This document shows, piece by piece, positions 2,692-15,518 of a stretch of 15,518 bases of DNA (position 1 is the stretch's first letter; each line of letters begins with the position of its first letter). The DNA is taken from positions 1-15,518 of the forward strand of contig PBFV01000085.1 of NCBI GenBank assembly GCA_002718935.1, read 5' to 3'. Origin of the DNA: Verrucomicrobiales bacterium (GTDB lineage: Bacteria; Verrucomicrobiota; Verrucomicrobiia; Limisphaerales; UBA1100). Below the pieces are notes generated by a model. The model did no database searches and was not told where the DNA came from. It saw only the letters and a list, made by a program, of their open reading frames with translations. The translations under genes and the position numbers were made by a program.

Positions 2692-4101
2692 ATGATTAGA
2701 TTGTTGATTGTTTTGTTGTTTGTAGTGAGCCCAGTGTTCGCGGCAAAGAAACCCGACGTTGTGTTTATCGTTGTTGATGACCTAAACGATTGGATAGGTG
2801 TGATGGGTGGCCACCCGCAAAGTAAAACTCCGAACCTTGATGCACTAGCGAATAAGGGAGTCTTGTTTACCAATGCCCACTGCAATGCTCCGCAGTGTGG
2901 ACCTTCGCGGACGAGTCTTTTGCATGGTCTCTATCCCAAAAGTACAGGAAAGTATTTCAATAGCACTCGTAGACCGGCTTTTTTTGGTGGTCAACCCATG
3001 GAGGGGATTACTTCCCCTAGCGCCCCGAAGAATCCGTTCATTTTTCACCACCATTTCAAGAAACACGGATACCGGGTGGTAAGCGGAGGGAAGGTTGCTC
3101 ACGGAAATTCCCGTGGAATCACAAAAAATGCCGATGAATATCTGAAGCGCCCGCCAGATGTCCGCGGTAATTTTACCGATGATAAGGCGAATCTCTGGGG
3201 AGAAGGGGGGGCTCATAACCATAAGGAAGAGGAAACGGGGGACTACAAGGTCGCCCAATGGGCGATTGGAGAATGGAGAAAAGGACTCGATGGCGACAAA
3301 CCTTTGCTTATGACCGTGGGCTTCTATCGGCCTCACCGTCCGTTTAATGCACCCAAGGCCTACTTTGAAAAGTTTCCTTTAGAGGGCATTAAGTTGCCGC
3401 AGGTTCGAGCGGATGACCTCGACGACTTGCCACCCTACGGAAAGGCTTTAGCTCGTTCCAATGCTCACAAGGATTTGTTTAAACCAAGAACCGTGCATGA
3501 ACAGATTCTTCATCGTGGTGGCGAGCAGGAGTGGAAGTATATGGTGCAGTCGCACCTCGCATGTATTAACTATGTGGATGCTCAGATTGGCCGCTTTCTG
3601 AGAGTGCTCAAAGACAATCCTCGAAAACGAGAAACCGTCATCGTACTTACCAGTGATCATGGCTGGAACCTTGGAGAGAAGACGCACTGGTGCAAGGCTG
3701 CCCTGTGGCGAAATACTACTCGCGTTCCGTTTATTGTCATTTTGCCAGGTGTGACCAAAGCTGGCACTCGCAATAATCAACCCATCTCTCACGTGGACAT
3801 CTATCCCAGTCTCTGTGACTTTGCGGGTATTCCTAAGCCAAGTTACCTTGAAGGACGTTCGATCCTACCCCTTTTGAAAGATCTAACGGCGACACGCGAG
3901 GTGGCCTTCCTCAGCTATGGCCCCGAGAATACTGCCGCTCAATCCGAACGCTATCGCTATTTACGCTACGAAGATGGTTCTGAGGAGTTGTATGATCATC
4001 AAAAAGACCCACACGAATGGGTCAATCAAAGCGGTAATCCGAAATATGGAGTCATCAAGAAAAAGATGCGCGCTCAGGTACTCCGCTTTCAGAGTGAGTA
4101 G
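2692..4101 (+). CDS. Secreted type I sulfatase, iduronate-2-sulfatase-like
   Basis: This 469-residue arylsulfatase-family enzyme hydrolyses sulfate esters, most likely on a polysaccharide, in the periplasm or outside the cell. A signal peptide covers residues 1-17 (cleavage after 'PVFA'). The metal-site motif 'VVDDLNDW' (D29, D30) is typical of the iduronate-2-sulfatase-like branch (SulfAtlas S1_7-like, from memory). The activation motif C-x-P-S-R is intact as C69-G-P-S-R73, so it should be matured by formylglycine formation. A second metal and catalytic block 'SDHGWNLGEK' (D322, H323) is present, followed by 'THWCK', where relatives usually have 'HWRK'. The C-terminus ends with the common 'ELYDHQKDPHEW' segment. 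Length is normal for the family. A GH128 glycosidase follows 68 bases downstream on the same strand, which suggests a role in glycan degradation. The natural substrate cannot be read from the sequence. Confidence 0.95.
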   Translation: MIRLLIVLLFVVSPVFAAKKPDVVFIVVDDLNDWIGVMGGHPQSKTPNLDALANKGVLFTNAHCNAPQCGPSRTSLLHGLYPKSTGKYFNSTRRPAFFGGQPMEGITSPSAPKNPFIFHHHFKKHGYRVVSGGKVAHGNSRGITKNADEYLKRPPDVRGNFTDDKANLWGEGGAHNHKEEETGDYKVAQWAIGEWRKGLDGDKPLLMTVGFYRPHRPFNAPKAYFEKFPLEGIKLPQVRADDLDDLPPYGKALARSNAHKDLFKPRTVHEQILHRGGEQEWKYMVQSHLACINYVDAQIGRFLRVLKDNPRKRETVIVLTSDHGWNLGEKTHWCKAALWRNTTRVPFIVILPGVTKAGTRNNQPISHVDIYPSLCDFAGIPKPSYLEGRSILPLLKDLTATREVAFLSYGPENTAAQSERYRYLRYEDGSEELYDHQKDPHEWVNQSGNPKYGVIKKKMRAQVLRFQSE

Positions 4102-8141: not shown

Positions 8142-9317
8142 TTAGCGCGCTTGGCCATTCAATTTTCTGAATTTCGAGGGAGTGAGTTTCTCGATTCTCA
8201 GAAAGGCTTTGCTTAGGTGGTCGCTATTGCGGAAGCCACATTCGATGGCTATAGATTTTAGGGAGCCCTTAGTTTCAATGATGAGTCGTTTAGCGCGTTC
8301 AATGCGCATGCGACCGATTTGCTTGGCGATGCCTTCTGGGGAGTACCGTTTGAAACGGCGTTCTAGACTTCTCCGGTTAATTCCGGTTGCGAGTGCCACA
8401 TCTTTCACTGACAAGGGGTGGTGGCTGTTTTCGGCAATAAATCGCAAGGCGTTTGATATTAGTGGGTCTTCTGCGGCAAAGGAGTCTGTGGACTGCCGCG
8501 GGACAAGTTTTTTGGGTTTTACTAATTCTGAGATTGCTGGCGGTTGATTTCCTCTCACCAAGCTATTGAGTAAATCAGCTGCACGGTAGCCAATTTCTTC
8601 AAACCCCATATCGATGCTGGTTAGTGTAGGGTAGGGGGAGTTGCAAATACTCGGCTCGTTAGAGGTGCCAATAATTGCGTAGTCATGGGGAACATTAAGC
8701 CCGGCGGAACGGCAGGCATCCATCAGATAACGGCAATATAGGTCGTTTACGACAAAAATGCCGATGGGCGGGCGCCAACTGGCCACCCATTTCAATAATC
8801 CGGATCTGAATTCATCCCATGCATTCGCATTTCCATGCAGGCTGGTTCGCGCAAATTGATGAATTGAACACTCGAAGTCCTTGGGCTGAAGGGTATGTTT
8901 GAATCCCTTGATTTGCCGTTTCGATTCAATTTCCCGGACATAGCCTAGATATCCAAACCGGCGAAACCCCCGACTCATCAAATGCTCTGCGGCGATCCTA
9001 CCTGACTCTTCAAAATCAGCGTGCACACTGGGCACCTGGGTTGCCGGTGAATTCAGCCAAACATTGACCATGGGCACCTTATTTCTCCGGGCAGTGGTAG
9101 CCATGGATTTTGTGGCTCGTGCAATTACACCGTCAAAGGGCTTTTCGTCTTTCTTTGACTTAAAAATGTGGTCCGAGCTTGGGGTGATCACGCAGTCCCA
9201 ACCGGTCTCGGAGGCATAGTTCAAGCACCCAGCGTAGGTTTCCAAGTGCCGTTTATATCCCCACTCCATCTCCAGCGCGATGGCTACCCGGGGCGGATTT
9301 GAGTGTGCTGGATTCAT
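8142..9317 (-). CDS. XylR-type transcriptional regulator (LacI-like sensor domain plus AraC HTH)
   Basis: The predicted product has 391 residues and is cytoplasmic. The N-terminal two thirds form a periplasmic-binding-protein-like sugar sensor: it opens 'PRVAIALEMEWGYKRHL' and contains 'ADFEESGRIAAEHLMSRGF', 'RFGYLGY' and 'YPTLTSIDMGFEEIGYRAADLL'. There is no N-terminal LacI HTH. The C-terminal hundred residues (about 284-391) are an AraC DNA-binding domain with two helix-turn-helices: 'LSVKDVALATGINRRSLERR' and 'SIAIECGFRNSDHLSKAFLR', closing with 'LTPSKFRK'. This is the arrangement of E. coli XylR, which activates sugar catabolism genes. The frame can be extended upstream to 9368, but that adds an unlikely Phe-rich lead and would cover the repeats in the control region, so I chose the ATG at 9315-9317. 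It is divergent from the esterase operon and probably controls it. The actual ligand is unknown. Confidence 0.92.
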   Translation of the reverse strand: MNPAHSNPPRVAIALEMEWGYKRHLETYAGCLNYASETGWDCVITPSSDHIFKSKKDEKPFDGVIARATKSMATTARRNKVPMVNVWLNSPATQVPSVHADFEESGRIAAEHLMSRGFRRFGYLGYVREIESKRQIKGFKHTLQPKDFECSIHQFARTSLHGNANAWDEFRSGLLKWVASWRPPIGIFVVNDLYCRYLMDACRSAGLNVPHDYAIIGTSNEPSICNSPYPTLTSIDMGFEEIGYRAADLLNSLVRGNQPPAISELVKPKKLVPRQSTDSFAAEDPLISNALRFIAENSHHPLSVKDVALATGINRRSLERRFKRYSPEGIAKQIGRMRIERAKRLIIETKGSLKSIAIECGFRNSDHLSKAFLRIEKLTPSKFRKLNGQAR

Positions 9318-9331
9318 CTTGAGTGGAGTAA

Positions 9332-9349
9332 TTTTGCTTTGTCGCAAAA
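9332..9349. repeat. Inverted repeat TTTTGC-N6-GCAAAA
   Basis: The arms at 9332-9337 and 9344-9349 are perfectly complementary with a 6-base spacer. The site lies 15 bases upstream of the regulator start codon and shares its right arm with the first direct repeat. It may be an operator (for example for autoregulation) or a chance result of the repeated GCAAAA core. Confidence 0.5.
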
Positions 9350-9374
9350 AGAAGAATAGAAAACGCAAAAAGAA
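9343..9374. repeat. Perfect 11-bp direct repeat with 21-bp period, candidate operator
   Basis: CGCAAAAAGAA occurs at 9343-9353 and again at 9364-9374, exactly 21 bases apart, which is two turns of B-DNA. A weaker copy of the core, GCAAGAA, follows at 9376-9382, 11 bases after the second GCAA. AraC-family dimers classically bind two direct half-sites with a 21-bp period, so this fits as the binding site of the adjacent regulator. The assignment is inference; the repeat itself is directly visible. Confidence 0.6.
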
Positions 9375-9415: not shown

Positions 9416-9486
9416 ATCAGGGCTTCTGTGCGGGGGATGAATGGGCAACCAATACGGATGAAGACCTTCTCGGCGGACAGTTGAAC

Positions 9487-10566
9487 ATGAAACAAATTAA
9501 TAAACTAAACTCAATCCTTTCAGCAGTCGTTCTGATGGCTGCTTCCACCTCGACCGTTTTAGCCGAACTACCGGATCCTAATGGCAAGTCGGCGGACATG
9601 TCCAAGCCGGTAAAGGTGTTTATCATCATGGGCCAATCCAACACGTTGGAGATGGGCCGAGTAAAAGGGGATAAGGATGGGACTCTTGAACACGCTGTTA
9701 AGAAAGAAAAACTATATCCGTTCATGGTGGATGACGCAGGCGATTGGACCAAGCGCATGGACGTCCGCAATGTTCACACGCAAGGCAGTGGCGGTCCAAA
9801 TGGACGCGGCGGGGTTCGGCGCAATGATTGGCTGACCGTCTCTGGAGGCAAGGTTGGCATTGAGATCGGCATCGGCCATCATCTGGGCAATGCGCTGGAT
9901 GAGCCAGTCCTGATTCTCAAAAGCTCCATTGGCAACCGTTCGCTGGGTTGGGATCTCTTGCCTCCGGGCAGTCCGCGGCATGAGGTGGAAACTACCGATC
10001 GGGCAGGTAACAAGGTGACGCTCGTGACCCCAGCCTTCAAGGATGAGGTGCGGCACCCCAGCTGGACCAAAGGCGCCGTGCCCGAGCCGCCCAAACACAA
10101 CTGGCACGCCGGTCTGCAATACATCGGCGATGTGGCACGAGCGAAGGCGGTGCTCAAGGATCTCGACAAGCATTACCCCGGCAGCAAGGGCTATGAGGTG
10201 GCCGGCTTCCTCTGGTGGCAGGGCGATAAGGATCGTTACAACGCAGCGCACGCGGCCATGTATGGCAAGAATCTGGTGCAACTTTTCAAGGCGCTCCGCA
10301 AGGAGTTCAATGCGCCGAAGGCCAAGATGGTGGTAGCCACCCTCGGCCAGACTGATAAGGATAAGGCTAAGGGTAACGAGAAGCTGATCATTGAAGGCAA
10401 ATTTGCCTTCGGGGCGGCACACAAAGGTGAGGCAGCCGTTGTGTATACTCATCCGCTTTCAATGGGTGGTGCCTCTAATGGTCATTACAGCGGCAATGCC
10501 AAGACCTACATGAACGTTGGGCTCGGCATGGGCAAGGCAATGGTGGAGTTGTTAAAATCCAAATAA
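9487..10566 (+). CDS. Secreted SASA-family (sialate O-acetylesterase-like, SGNH) carbohydrate esterase
   Basis: The predicted product has 359 residues from the ATG at 9487; a TTG two codons upstream is a less likely start. The signal peptide ends near residue 26 ('STVLA'). The SGNH nucleophile block is 'VFIIMGQSN' (S51). Later come 'LKSSIGNRSLGWDLLPPGS', the 'FLWWQGDKD' block, and the C-terminal His block 'NGHYSGNA' (H333). This matches PF03629 esterases that remove acetyl groups from carbohydrates; true sialic acid specificity is not implied. It is the first gene of the operon divergent from the XylR-like regulator. Its TAA overlaps the ribosome binding site of the next gene, so the two are very likely co-transcribed. 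Confidence 0.88.
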   Translation: MKQINKLNSILSAVVLMAASTSTVLAELPDPNGKSADMSKPVKVFIIMGQSNTLEMGRVKGDKDGTLEHAVKKEKLYPFMVDDAGDWTKRMDVRNVHTQGSGGPNGRGGVRRNDWLTVSGGKVGIEIGIGHHLGNALDEPVLILKSSIGNRSLGWDLLPPGSPRHEVETTDRAGNKVTLVTPAFKDEVRHPSWTKGAVPEPPKHNWHAGLQYIGDVARAKAVLKDLDKHYPGSKGYEVAGFLWWQGDKDRYNAAHAAMYGKNLVQLFKALRKEFNAPKAKMVVATLGQTDKDKAKGNEKLIIEGKFAFGAAHKGEAAVVYTHPLSMGGASNGHYSGNAKTYMNVGLGMGKAMVELLKSK

Positions 10567-10576: not shown

Positions 10577-13252
10577 ATGAAAAAGAGTGCCTCTTTGTTC
10601 CACGGGTGGATTGCCCTGTGTCTGGGCGTTCCATCATTCTTATTGGCTGCCCCTAAGGCGGCTGAGGGAATTGCCTTAACCGGTGAGGGGCGCCGCCTTG
10701 AGGCCCGCTATGCCAAGGAACTCGAGGAGCTGTGGTCGCAGTTAACCAAAAGTATTCCTTATATAGCAGCTCCGACAACCAATGAGGCCCGGAAGCGGCA
10801 GTTCAATTTTCCGGACGTTGGCCTTGGGGGCAACAAAAAGGGCGGGAATCGGTCGCTGGATGATTTGCTGGATAGAGGAGAAAAGCCGGCCCGCAAAGAT
10901 ACTGAATCGACGCCACAAGAGAAGTTCGCCCCTTACCTGACCAACAATCGGCTGGATGGATTGTTGGTAAAGTACGTTGTGTTGCTGGATGCCACACCGC
11001 GCGGCTTGGCGGAATTTGCTCAGCAGGATAAGGAGCATTTGGCACTGGTTGAGCGGTTGCTGGCGAACGCCGACCTGATGAAGCGGATGTTAGTGGCGGA
11101 TGGCGCCAAGGCCAAGCGCATCGGCCGTGGCGGCTATGGGCCTGCTCGTTACGGGGAGGCTATGAAAATCTACACGGCTATTCGCAAAGCTAGCAGCCTC
11201 GCCTCGGGCGGGGTGTTCGAGCGTTTGGCCTTGGCTATTTCCATGGAGCACGCGGTGCCCATGACGCAAACCAATCCTAAGGCCCAAGCGAACGCGCCAG
11301 CGACCATCGACCCCATTAAACGCTACCTGCATTATGAAAAGGCGCACCTCGCCGGTGAACTGGATCCGACTTTTAAAAACCTGAGTGTTTGGAGCCTGCG
11401 CATGGTGGTGAATGGGGACGAACCCGACGAGACGATGGCGTGGGGCCGGCAAACGCTTCGAAACTTCCGGCCCGATCACATTTACGAATCCAACTTTGGT
11501 TGGCGCTACGTTGGAATTGTGAGTTCAGAGGTGAAGTACGGTTCGGGCGACGTGAAGTATGACCGGGACGAACTGCAGAAATACCAGAACATCATCATGA
11601 ACGGCGGCATCTGCGGTCGCCGCGCCTTCTTTGGCCGGTTCATCCTGCGTTCATTTGGTGTACCGACCACGGCGCGGCCGAGCCGTGGCCATGGCGCGCT
11701 CGCCCGTTGGACGCCCGGCGGCTGGTGCGTGAACCTCGGACCCGGCTGGGGATCGGGCTGGACCAAAACGCGCTACCACAAGGACGTGGATTTTCTCGCC
11801 AGCTCCAAGGCGCGCAATGATGAGGAAGCATTTTTGATGGTTAAGCGGGCTCAGTGGATCGGCGATGTGTTTGGTGAGAGACGGATTCATGGGGATAACG
11901 ATCCGTCGCTGAGGTTTAACAGTCAGGTGCAGTTGAAGCCCAAGTTTTGGAACGGCATGGCACTCTGGACTCAGCGCGAAATCATCACCAAGTTGAAGGC
12001 AGCTACCCTCGGCGCCTTGGGGGCGGAACTCGGTGAATCCAACAAGCCGACCATCGCGCAACAAGTGATCGCTGCGCCGGTTGATCCGAAGCACAAGCAA
12101 ATCACTTACAGCGAAAACGGGGTCATCTCGATTCCCGGCGCGGCTTACACTCAAACCTCCGGCAACGTTCGGGAAATCTTGGCCATGAAAAGCTTCGGCG
12201 GAGGCATGCAGATTTTCCTACCACGTTTCGCGCCGGAAGGGCTCACGATCATGCGTGGCGGCACCTGGAAAGGAACGCCGGATGCGTGCACTTCCGGCAG
12301 CCGCATGCTCAGCGCGGGATATGGCCGGTACGAAAACTGGGGCCTGCGGGCGGCCATCACTCCGGCCCCGGGCAAGGCGTCGGCGAAGGAGCTCAAGCTT
12401 GATCTAGGTGAGGGGGTGACCATGGAATTTATCTACGTGAAACCGGGCAAGTTTGTGATGGGCGGTGAGAACGAAAAGGAGAGCCGTTTCGCCTGTGTGG
12501 AATTGCCCAAACATGGGGTGGAGCTCACCCAAGGATTTTACCTCGGTAAATACGAAGTGACGCAGGCCCAATTTGAGGCGGCCATGGGAGCGAACCCGAG
12601 CCGGTCGACCAAGGGGGCGGATTGTCCGGTCGACAATGTTTCTGAACCGGATGCCCGGCAGTTTTGCATCCGGCTTAGTGAAATCGCCAATGTGGAGGCC
12701 CGGCTTCCTACCGAGGCGGAATGGGAATACGCCAGCCGCGCGGGGCGTTCCACCAAATGGTTCTTCGGTGATGACCCATCCAAGATCGGGGATTACGCCT
12801 GGTACAAGGACAACGCTGGAGCGAAGTCGCATCCTGTGGGCCAAAAGAAGCCTAACCAGTGGGGGTTCTACGACATGTACGGCAACGTCAACGAGCGCAT
12901 CTCCGACAAATATCACAAGGACTATTACGCCAACAGTCCCAAGACAGATCCGACCGGGCCTAAGCAGGCAACCAAGTCCCGTTTTGAGTTCAGTATATCG
13001 GCTCCGCAAGCGGGCAAGTACGCATTGAGCGCTCAAGTGGTCACGGTAAATTACGACCAGTGGTTGAAGGTTGCGGCGAATGACGGATCGGAAGTCGCCA
13101 TGCCCATGCCTTTTACTGAAGGCGATTGGCAGGACTCGAAGCCCGTTGAGCTAACGTTGCAAAAGGGGGGGAACACCCTCCGATTCTGGCGCGACGCCCC
13201 GCCGCAGAAAGGCGTGGCGATCAAGAAGTTTACCCTTACGCCGGTGAAATAG
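10577..13252 (+). CDS. Exported multidomain protein: transglutaminase-like domain plus permuted FGE-fold domain nested in a beta-sandwich
   Basis: The predicted product has 891 residues. The signal peptide ends near residue 24 ('SFLLAA'). A helical region (about 30-330) leads to a transglutaminase/cysteine-protease-like core: 'NGGICGRRAFFGRF' (C346), 'SRGHGALARW' (H372) and 'WCVNLG' (N386 as possible third residue). At about 515-550 ('VISIPGAAY', 'MKSFGGGMQIFLPR') a beta-sandwich begins. It is interrupted and resumes at about 802 ('RFEFSISAPQAGKYALSA') to the C-terminus ('IKKFTLTPVK'), resembling carbohydrate-binding domains. The interrupting block has FGE-sulfatase (SUMF1-like) features in swapped order. 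The usual C-terminal motif comes first ('MRGGTW' 559-564, 'NWGLRAAI' to 594). The usual N-terminal part follows: 'VTMEFIYVKPGKFVMGG' from 614, 'YLGKYEVTQAQFEAAMG', 'LPTEAEWEYASRAG' 710-723, 'DMYGNVNER', 'KTDPTGP' to 795. The paired active-site cysteines of genuine FGE are missing, so sulfatase activation is unlikely. It is the second gene of the esterase operon. Its role is unknown. Confidence 0.85.
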   Translation: MKKSASLFHGWIALCLGVPSFLLAAPKAAEGIALTGEGRRLEARYAKELEELWSQLTKSIPYIAAPTTNEARKRQFNFPDVGLGGNKKGGNRSLDDLLDRGEKPARKDTESTPQEKFAPYLTNNRLDGLLVKYVVLLDATPRGLAEFAQQDKEHLALVERLLANADLMKRMLVADGAKAKRIGRGGYGPARYGEAMKIYTAIRKASSLASGGVFERLALAISMEHAVPMTQTNPKAQANAPATIDPIKRYLHYEKAHLAGELDPTFKNLSVWSLRMVVNGDEPDETMAWGRQTLRNFRPDHIYESNFGWRYVGIVSSEVKYGSGDVKYDRDELQKYQNIIMNGGICGRRAFFGRFILRSFGVPTTARPSRGHGALARWTPGGWCVNLGPGWGSGWTKTRYHKDVDFLASSKARNDEEAFLMVKRAQWIGDVFGERRIHGDNDPSLRFNSQVQLKPKFWNGMALWTQREIITKLKAATLGALGAELGESNKPTIAQQVIAAPVDPKHKQITYSENGVISIPGAAYTQTSGNVREILAMKSFGGGMQIFLPRFAPEGLTIMRGGTWKGTPDACTSGSRMLSAGYGRYENWGLRAAITPAPGKASAKELKLDLGEGVTMEFIYVKPGKFVMGGENEKESRFACVELPKHGVELTQGFYLGKYEVTQAQFEAAMGANPSRSTKGADCPVDNVSEPDARQFCIRLSEIANVEARLPTEAEWEYASRAGRSTKWFFGDDPSKIGDYAWYKDNAGAKSHPVGQKKPNQWGFYDMYGNVNERISDKYHKDYYANSPKTDPTGPKQATKSRFEFSISAPQAGKYALSAQVVTVNYDQWLKVAANDGSEVAMPMPFTEGDWQDSKPVELTLQKGGNTLRFWRDAPPQKGVAIKKFTLTPVK

Positions 13253-13374: not shown

Positions 13375-15518
13375 ATGAACACTTTCATTGCCTCCATGCT
13401 CCTTGGCCTATCTATGGCTCCGGGACTCGTGGCCGCCGAGCAACAGCTCGAGTTGGCCGTGCCGTTTACAGATAACATGATCCTCCAACGCGAATCCGCC
13501 GTGCCAGTGTGGGGCTGGGATGTGCCGGGCACAAAGGTGATTGTTCAGTTTGCCGGGCAAGCCAAGACGGCGGTTGCTGATAAACACGGTGACTGGATGG
13601 TGAAGCTCGACCCGTTGAAGGTCTCACGTGAGGAGCGCACTTTTGCAGTGAAGAACAATCGAGGCCAAGCCATCACCCTCAAGGGCGTTTTGGTCGGCGA
13701 GGTGTGGTTTTCCTCCGGTCAATCAAACATGGTTTGGACCGCTGGCAAAAGCATGTGCAATCAATTGGCGCGTGATCTCGCCTCGGCCAAGGAGGATATT
13801 CCGATCCGTGAGATCAACATCAATACCGTTTCTGCACTGTACCCGCAGAAACGCGCCACCTCGGATGACGGTTGGAAAAAAGTGAGTGCCGCAAGCGGGT
13901 TTTCCGCGCTATCCCTTTCCTTTGCGCACGACCTTTATAAGGAACTGGGAGTGCCGATTGGCATCCTCCTCAGTGCTCATAGCAATACGCGCATCGAGGC
14001 TTTTACCCAACGCTATGCCATCGAGGCGCACGCCAAGCTCAAGGACGACGCCGATCTCATCCGCGACGCCGACCCGCTTACCGCCCAAGGCCGCAAGGCC
14101 TACGATCAATACTATGCTGACTTGAAGGCGTGGCAGGTCACCGCTAGTGAGGCGATGGAAAAGGGCGGCCGCGTCCCGGCGCGGCCCAAGTTGCCGGGCA
14201 TCGCCGGCATGTGGCGGGGGCCGTCGCAGTTTTTCAACGGCAAGATTGCGCCGGTGATTCCCTATGCCATCCGGGGTGCAATCTGGTGTCAGGGCACGAG
14301 TAACAGCGGCGATGGCCGCATTTACGCCGCGCGCATGGAGGCGCTGATGCAGGGCTGGCGCGATGCGTGGGGCACGCCGGAGATGCCGTTTTACTTCACC
14401 CAAATGCAATGCTACGGCTCGCCCGATCCGGATAACGTTGGCTTTGCCGATATCCGACAGGTGCAGCATTTGTTTTTCAAAAACAACCGTGAGAATGTCG
14501 GCATGGTAGTGCAGTCGGACCTCAACTCCGCGCGGCCACAGGGCATTCATTACTTCAATAAGCTGCATCCCGGCATGCGCATGGCGCGATGGGCCTTGGC
14601 CAAGGAGTACGGCAAGCAGGTCGCCTACACCGGTCCGATCTTCAGCGACTACGAGGTGAATGGGAGCAAGGTGACGGTGCGTTTTGAGCGGGGCAGTCTC
14701 TTTGGTGGCTTGATGGTCGGCAGTAAGGGGATGGCCAAGGATTACCGGGAGCCTGGTAAATTCATCGAGCCGGCGGTACCCAGGCCCGGCGAGAAGCTCA
14801 ACCACTTCCGCTTATGCGGGGCCGACAAACAATGGCATGCCGCCGAGGCGAAGATTGTGGGCGATACTGTGGTCGTGACTTCCGAAAAAGTCTCCGCACC
14901 CATCGGCGTGCAGTACGCCTACAGCGCCGTCCCGGAGAATTCCAATTTGTACAATCGAGCCGGCCTGCCAGCTACGCCGTTTGCCATGATCGATGGGCAG
15001 TTTATTTTCGAGGAAGACGATCTCGAAAAGGCTGCCGAGCTCAAGGCGAAGTACGCGCGCTTCACGGATCCAGATTATCCCATCCTGCAAGTGGCCGAGT
15101 ATTATCGTGATGGTGTCATCTTGCAGCGCAATCAGCCGATCCGTGTATGGGGTCACGCGAATCAGGGCGTGACGGTGAAGATCAATTTGGGCGGCGCGAT
15201 TCAGAGGGTGGTGGCCAACGACTTACAGCAATGGTCTGTCACTTTCCCCGCGCGCCAAGCCTCAACCCAACCGATCACGCTCCAGATCGACACCAGTCAT
15301 GATCACAGCCGAACGGTGAAGGATATTTTGATTGGCGATGTTTGGTACCTCACCGGTAGCACGCAACTCACCTCCGAATGGGCGCACGATCGGTGCGACA
15401 ACGAGGCCAAGTTGCCCACCACACTGCCATTCGTCCGCGAGTATCGTCGTCGAACCAAGACCAGCTCCTTTGCCACGCCGCGCAAGCGCCGCTTCGAGAC
15501 GGGCGGGGGAAAATACCG
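13375..15518 (+). CDS. Large secreted sialate O-acetylesterase-like protein with a second, degenerate SASA repeat (3' partial)
   Basis: The frame is open for 714 codons from the ATG at 13375 to the window edge, with no stop. The signal peptide ends near residue 21 ('GLVAA'). Module 1 is a typical sialate O-acetylesterase: 'PFTDNMILQR', 'PVWGWDVPG', then 'VGEVWFSSGQSN' with nucleophile S117, the 'WCQG' block, and 'LHPGMRMARWALAKEYGK' (H398). Two usual residues are changed. The Glu of 'QGESN' is Thr308, and the acidic residue expected just before the catalytic His is Lys396, so activity may be reduced or altered. Module 2 starts near residue 573 and repeats the N-terminal architecture: 'YYRDGVILQRNQPIRVWG', then 'IGDVWYLTG'. 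There the GQSN nucleophile motif is replaced by 'GSTQ' (662-664). It closes the operon visible here, after the transglutaminase/FGE-fold gene and the orphan ORF. The role is probably removal of acetyl groups from glycans. Confidence 0.88.
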   Translation, partial: MNTFIASMLLGLSMAPGLVAAEQQLELAVPFTDNMILQRESAVPVWGWDVPGTKVIVQFAGQAKTAVADKHGDWMVKLDPLKVSREERTFAVKNNRGQAITLKGVLVGEVWFSSGQSNMVWTAGKSMCNQLARDLASAKEDIPIREININTVSALYPQKRATSDDGWKKVSAASGFSALSLSFAHDLYKELGVPIGILLSAHSNTRIEAFTQRYAIEAHAKLKDDADLIRDADPLTAQGRKAYDQYYADLKAWQVTASEAMEKGGRVPARPKLPGIAGMWRGPSQFFNGKIAPVIPYAIRGAIWCQGTSNSGDGRIYAARMEALMQGWRDAWGTPEMPFYFTQMQCYGSPDPDNVGFADIRQVQHLFFKNNRENVGMVVQSDLNSARPQGIHYFNKLHPGMRMARWALAKEYGKQVAYTGPIFSDYEVNGSKVTVRFERGSLFGGLMVGSKGMAKDYREPGKFIEPAVPRPGEKLNHFRLCGADKQWHAAEAKIVGDTVVVTSEKVSAPIGVQYAYSAVPENSNLYNRAGLPATPFAMIDGQFIFEEDDLEKAAELKAKYARFTDPDYPILQVAEYYRDGVILQRNQPIRVWGHANQGVTVKINLGGAIQRVVANDLQQWSVTFPARQASTQPITLQIDTSHDHSRTVKDILIGDVWYLTGSTQLTSEWAHDRCDNEAKLPTTLPFVREYRRRTKTSSFATPRKRRFETGGGKY

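Follow-up and report, generated by a model that had tools for sequence, protein, structure and literature searches.

A probable circularly permuted FGE-type domain nested within a CBM6-like domain in a Verrucomicrobiales bacterium

The window analysed here (a stretch of 15,518 nucleotides, contig PBFV01000085.1 of the Verrucomicrobiales assembly GCA_002718935.1) contains a gene for a protein of 891 amino acids, in the C-terminal part of which an FGE-type domain, with its two pieces in reversed order, appears to interrupt a carbohydrate-binding module (CBM) of the CBM6 type. The gene and its parts are as follows:

10577..13252, + strand: gene of the 891-residue protein (open reading frame, stop included)
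10907..12061, + strand: conserved N-terminal domain (TG), residues 111-495, with conserved Cys346, His372 and Asn386
12110..12226, + strand: CBM6-like host domain, part 1 (A1), residues 512-550
12227..12976, + strand: inserted permuted FGE-type block, residues 551-800, ends accurate to a few residues
12233..12367, + strand: F2 (C-terminal FGE-type piece, placed first here), residues 553-597
12368..12388, + strand: F2-to-F1 linker, residues 598-604, of low conservation
12389..12976, + strand: F1 (N-terminal FGE-type piece, placed second here), residues 605-800
12977..13249, + strand: CBM6-like host domain, part 2 (A2), residues 801-891

The N-terminus resembles a signal peptide by eye, and the protein is probably secreted. 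The TG domain belongs to a large family and has no Pfam match; Cys346 and His372 are present in 68/68 alignment rows and Asn386 in 65/68. This pattern, which we take to be the Cys-His-Asp/Asn triad of transglutaminases and papain-like proteins, suggests an enzyme of that kind. The nested domains would make up the C-terminal end of the protein, behind this transglutaminase-like domain. The best-conserved parts of the protein are F2 and F1 (0.86 each), and the linker between them has a mean conservation of 0.44, as against 0.86 on either flank.

The reversed order of the block is indicated by several lines of evidence. The Pfam profile PF03781 matched residues 617-791, covering profile positions 4-205 of 255 only, and the missing last fifth of the profile lies upstream, at residues 553-597; in the canonical-order proteins P0289 and P0295 the match spans profile positions 4-254 of 255. 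A Protein Data Bank search retrieved TvpA (2y3c), in which query residues 705-795 correspond to chain residues 159-249, and query residues 557-595 (7.8 bits when taken alone) to chain residues 255-293, directly after the first stretch. Five segment profiles (TG 100-495, A1 512-550, F2 553-597, F1 604-800, A2 802-891) were derived from 68 family members, and that of F2 was applied to 81 FGE instances outside the family (one of 82 was too short). Downstream of F1 it scored above 5 bits in 56/81 instances and above 0 in 76/81, as compared with 0/81 and 10/81 for shuffled downstream stretches and 6/81 and 12/81 for upstream stretches, all six upstream matches above 5 bits being arrays with another F1 immediately before. 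Since F2 follows F1 outside the family, it corresponds to the C-terminal end of the FGE domain, which here stands in front.

In a rotation test, a canonical relative was doubled, so that it could be read in rotated order, and aligned to the block. The score of P0289 rose from 649 to 781 (a gain of 132, with 142/244 residues identical), and 200 shuffles of its F2 gave a mean gain of 5 and a maximum of 26. The gains for P0295, P0329, P0332 and P0335 were 130, 80, 45 and 47, with shuffled maxima of 20, 24, 11 and 15, respectively. Once rotated, the block is thus collinear with its canonical homologues; it is of the FGE/SUMF1 domain type in sequence and predicted fold, but does not have the normal order of F1 before F2. 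The circular permutation proposed in the earlier note, which had placed its motifs correctly (MRGGTW 559-564, GLRAAI 589-594, VTMEF from 614, TDPTGP 790-795), is therefore upheld by the rotation test, by the F2 profile test and, weakly (57/93), by the tree of F1 and F2 described below. At the level of sequence, the chain can be followed from the CBM6-like domain through about residue 550 into F2, then through a short variable linker into F1 and back into the CBM6-like domain.

The same note regarded the block as interrupting a carbohydrate-binding-like beta-sandwich, a view backed by block-free relatives and by CBM6 matches that cross the split; its suggested search for relatives with and without the block found both kinds. 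In the block-free TG-domain relatives L006-L011, from the same taxonomic order, the C-terminal domain is uninterrupted. Among the best 120 of 3097 matches in a search with L009, 119 had the layout TG-A1-A2 and one TG-A2, and neither F1 nor F2 was present in any of these 120. Within the taxonomic order, 9/320 genomes had block-free genes and no block-bearing gene at the threshold of that search (the classified block-free loci are the eight loci L089-L096 and L009). Some block-bearing genomes, for example G708, G709, G711, G714 and G715, appear, from match ranges and frame lengths, to carry paralogues of both kinds. When A1 and A2 of the window protein were joined, the alignment scores exceeded those of the interrupted form: 277 versus 228 for L006 (60/127 identities), 295 versus 245 for L090 (69/128), 274 versus 230 for L091 (63/128) and 241 versus 185 for L009 (55/124). 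The Pfam CBM_6 profile reached 13.9-25.0 bits, below its cut-off of 28.9, in the block-free P0121, P0128, P0164, P0227 and L006, and had no match in the block-free L090 or in the window protein. Precomputed tables listed CBM_6 for the block-free P0227 and CBM_35 (PF16990) for the family members P0258 and P0275.

In the structure prediction, which was of high confidence, the FGE-type domain is ordered and a CBM6 fold is split around it. The model aligned with the CBM6 structure 2cdp_D over 125/130 residues (root mean square deviation 2.0), and the host domain has the CBM6 fold as predicted; compared with known CBM6 and CBM35 modules, it would share the CBM6 fold and differ in its interruption by about 250 residues. 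The earlier note's own counter-case, in which the two segments fail to make up a single FGE fold, is rendered unlikely by the model. For the alignment used (A4), block-free rows were represented by their A2 part only, as these rows had been misplaced in A3. A search of a viral fold library matched phage and giant-virus proteins of various kinds, one of the phage proteins being FGE-like.

The arrangement is not confined to the window. A search with residues 490-891 scored 7992 candidates and gave 4975 matching proteins; among the best 120, 118 had the order TG-A1-F2-F1-A2 and two were tandem FGE arrays. In named genomes the full or contig-cut arrangement was found in Verrucomicrobiota and Planctomycetota, including Pirellulaceae. 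At the thresholds used, it was present in 3/387 sampled genomes of the window's phylum Verrucomicrobiota (the window's own being counted), in 3/392 sampled Planctomycetota genomes (a fourth match was the canonical P0289) and in 3/320 genomes of the window's taxonomic order, with one more contig-cut copy in G019. The nested permuted arrangement is thus widespread yet infrequent; the 11 genomes among which G708, G709, G711, G714 and G715 fall were picked for their family loci, so that their 11/11 says nothing of frequency. The window comes from a draft assembly (85 contigs, completeness about 71%), in which an assembly artefact or a misread gene might be suspected, but the identical order in 118/120 listed homologues and at loci from genomes assembled independently makes the chance of this negligible. 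A chimera at the junctions, named in the earlier note as a possible refutation, is excluded, as relatives, including those from separately assembled genomes, share both junctions.

Canonical relatives were sought with the block alone, the listed proteins being filtered to about 140-450 amino acids. Among the best 120 of 7989 matches, F2 preceded F1 in 59, followed it in 13 and was not scorable in 48 proteins with F1. The F2-first proteins comprised 56 with A2, one with TG and A1 and two short pieces; 36 of the 48 F1-only proteins also had A2. In P0289 and P0295 the profiles gave 322 and 321 bits for F1, followed by 65 and 61 bits for F2, and one of the sampled Planctomycetota genomes (G992) contains P0289 as well. 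A tree of F1 and F2 was built from 36 rows, 18 of them permuted and the canonical ones hand-chosen, after leaving out rows lacking a usable F2 (12 of the 29 permuted rows retained in the F1-only tree, four canonical ones, and P0316, whose sequence breaks off ahead of F2). Permuted rows grouped with P0289, P0295 and P0329 at 98/96, and with P0289 and P0295 alone at 83/93; P0332, P0335 and the remaining canonical rows fell outside the 98/96 group. An F1-only tree of 93 rows needed four changes between orders, before three rows were reclassified: P0336 was moved to the permuted ones (weak A2 score), and P0308 and P0341 were dropped as apparent frameshifted fragments. In a quick TG-domain tree, 21 rows with the block and 27 without it were separated with two changes. 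The canonical order was most likely the ancestral one, and the permuted nested block likely had a single origin. The permuted order might also have arisen in a free-standing FGE protein that was inserted into the CBM6-like domain later; the trees are compatible with either order of events. As all 59 F2-first proteins among the best 120 of 7989 matches are family members or fragments of them, we consider it unlikely.

A possible source of the block is seen in tandem FGE arrays of the window's taxonomic order (L097-L100 and L102), in which a stretch running F2-linker-F1, across neighbouring units, is 43-46% identical to the block and covers about residues 558-797 in a single alignment. The arrays have this stretch in common with the window protein, but their units are in the normal order, and no CBM6-like host was found in them by profile. 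No intermediates were present among the classified proteins from the searches with residues 490-891, L009 and the block. The observed order would plausibly result from a unit taken out of phase from such an array or from a duplication. The single origin would then be one out-of-phase unit of a tandem array or a local duplication, inserted into a surface loop of a pre-existing host protein. The linker would connect the last and first strands, which should pair in an FGE-type fold, so that the rotation would be cheap. Long tandem FGE arrays were also seen in L044, P0060 and P0093, besides L097-L100 and L102; the planctomycete L044 has nine F1 units in one frame.

The earlier note had also pointed to the word CGTTT at both junctions (12224-12228 and 12980-12984, 756 bases apart). 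The word is present there as described, but does not serve as a trace of insertion: the longest word common to both junctions is 4 or 5 bases in 15 family loci, with CGTTT in the window and L022 only, and 30-base stretches paired at random from the gene shared a word of at least 5 bases in 1002/1952 trials. A target-site duplication was thus rejected as chance.

As to the function of the block, the active-site cysteines of human FGE, Cys336 and Cys341, mutants of both of which are named in the structural search, were matched by eye to positions 566 and 571. Position 566 is occupied by Gly in 60, Asn in 6, Glu in 1 and Ser in 1 of 68 rows, and position 571 by Cys in 65 and Ser in 3, so that one active-site cysteine is absent in 68/68 rows and the two-cysteine pattern of FGE is lacking. 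An enzymatic reading as FGE is disfavoured on this ground. Another FGE-like protein of the same genome (L002, G000:C13:32937-33353) has both cysteines (GGSFLCTDLYC), and the nested block therefore need not act as the genome's FGE. On the strength of these two observations the block is taken as a binding module, and would be non-enzymatic and ligand-binding. It could still be an enzyme, FGE-like or EgtB/PvdO-like, which the nesting brings to its substrate, as F2 and F1 are the best-conserved parts of the protein and one Cys is retained in 65/68 rows; given the cysteine missing throughout the family and the two-cysteine protein in the same genome, this is quite unlikely.

The neighbours of the gene in the window include a sulfatase with the Cys-type motif CGPSR (2692-4101), a glycosyl-hydrolase-like protein and two carbohydrate esterases, which flank it:

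9481-10566: carbohydrate esterase of the SASA family
13375-15516: carbohydrate esterase of the SASA family, on the other flank, continuing past the window end

A regulator with periplasmic-binding-protein-like and AraC-type DNA-binding domains, like those of sugar-sensing regulators, is encoded at 8142-9368 (- strand). In a survey of 20 chosen neighbours at 11 family loci, SASA genes were found near five (L012, L013, L020, where the score was barely above the cut-off, L021 and L083), a sulfatase near L017, and other kinds of genes near L014, L015, L016, L018 and L019. The neighbours are consistent with polysaccharide use. The block, tethered to the CBM at two points, might bind polysaccharide jointly with it.

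Taken as a whole, the evidence makes it highly probable that the protein carries a permuted FGE-type domain of the C-type-lectin fold (CLec) nested in a CBM6-like domain, with the origin and function outlined above. Several points weigh against this explanation. The gene neighbours vary between members, so the substrate is not fixed by them. In the tree of F1 and F2, the permuted rows stand on one side of a branch with the weak support of 57/93 (57% bootstrap); in the F1-only tree the canonical P0289, P0295 and P0316 lie among the permuted rows without resolution, and the TG-domain tree links the empty row L006 to the block row L020 with a value of 84. The block may thus have been lost later in some members or, given these canonical rows, the normal order may have been regained. 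The full-length AlphaFold2 model, from 68 close homologues, had a predicted local distance difference test score (pLDDT) of 56.4 and was not used, and the alignment for the nested-domain model included five tandem-array stretches in F2-F1 order. Structural matches of the model to the canonical FGE fold cover F1 only, and how F2 packs on F1 is judged from pLDDT, the predicted template modelling score (pTM) and strand assignment. This leaves some room for a segment swap, in which F2 would fill out the FGE fold of an adjacent molecule and the order would reflect a swapped dimer, not a closed permuted domain; segment swapping is listed in PMC3779223 for one member of the C-type lectin-like superfamily, collagen IV NC1. 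However, confidence in the single-chain model stays high through F2 (10-residue mean pLDDT 90-97 across model residues 51-100), and the length of the linker resembles that of the inter-unit linkers of the arrays L097 and L098 (those of L102 are shorter), which makes a swap very unlikely and leaves the closed, nested and permuted domain as the preferred explanation.

Compared with the FGE/SUMF1 family (PF03781), human FGE and TvpA (2y3c), the window block is rotated, nested and devoid of one active-site cysteine. By its title, Montanier et al. 2010 reportedly links two calcium-dependent CBM families by circular permutation; this would likewise be a natural permutation in carbohydrate-binding folds, with the CBM permuted there and the guest domain here. 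According to a 2026 survey (PMC13114784), a domain that has been inserted can itself be permuted, some insertions in RNA polymerase being examples, and this kind of event is therefore known. Those insertions likewise place a permuted domain in a host, with another host and another guest; the present case differs in offering both sister domains in canonical order and hosts without the block. No described permuted FGE domain was found in the open-licence PubMed Central literature, subscription papers and lists of permuted structures lying outside this coverage, and the accessible parts of PMC3779223 and PMC4444583 describe none. A bolder proposal, which we regard as doubtful though possible, is that this is the first natural FGE-type permutation, fixed by insertion of an out-of-phase array unit beside the CBM6 ligand site, where F2, bearing a ligand site, and the CBM would form a composite glycan-binding site.

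A linear profile such as PF03781 detects about 80% of the permuted domain and overlooks the remainder. For most natural circular permutations, what is known is the end state. In this family, a canonical sister of the permuted guest (58% identity) has survived alongside it, as have the host without the block and arrays with the out-of-phase stretch, and the steps of permutation by insertion would therefore be directly testable.
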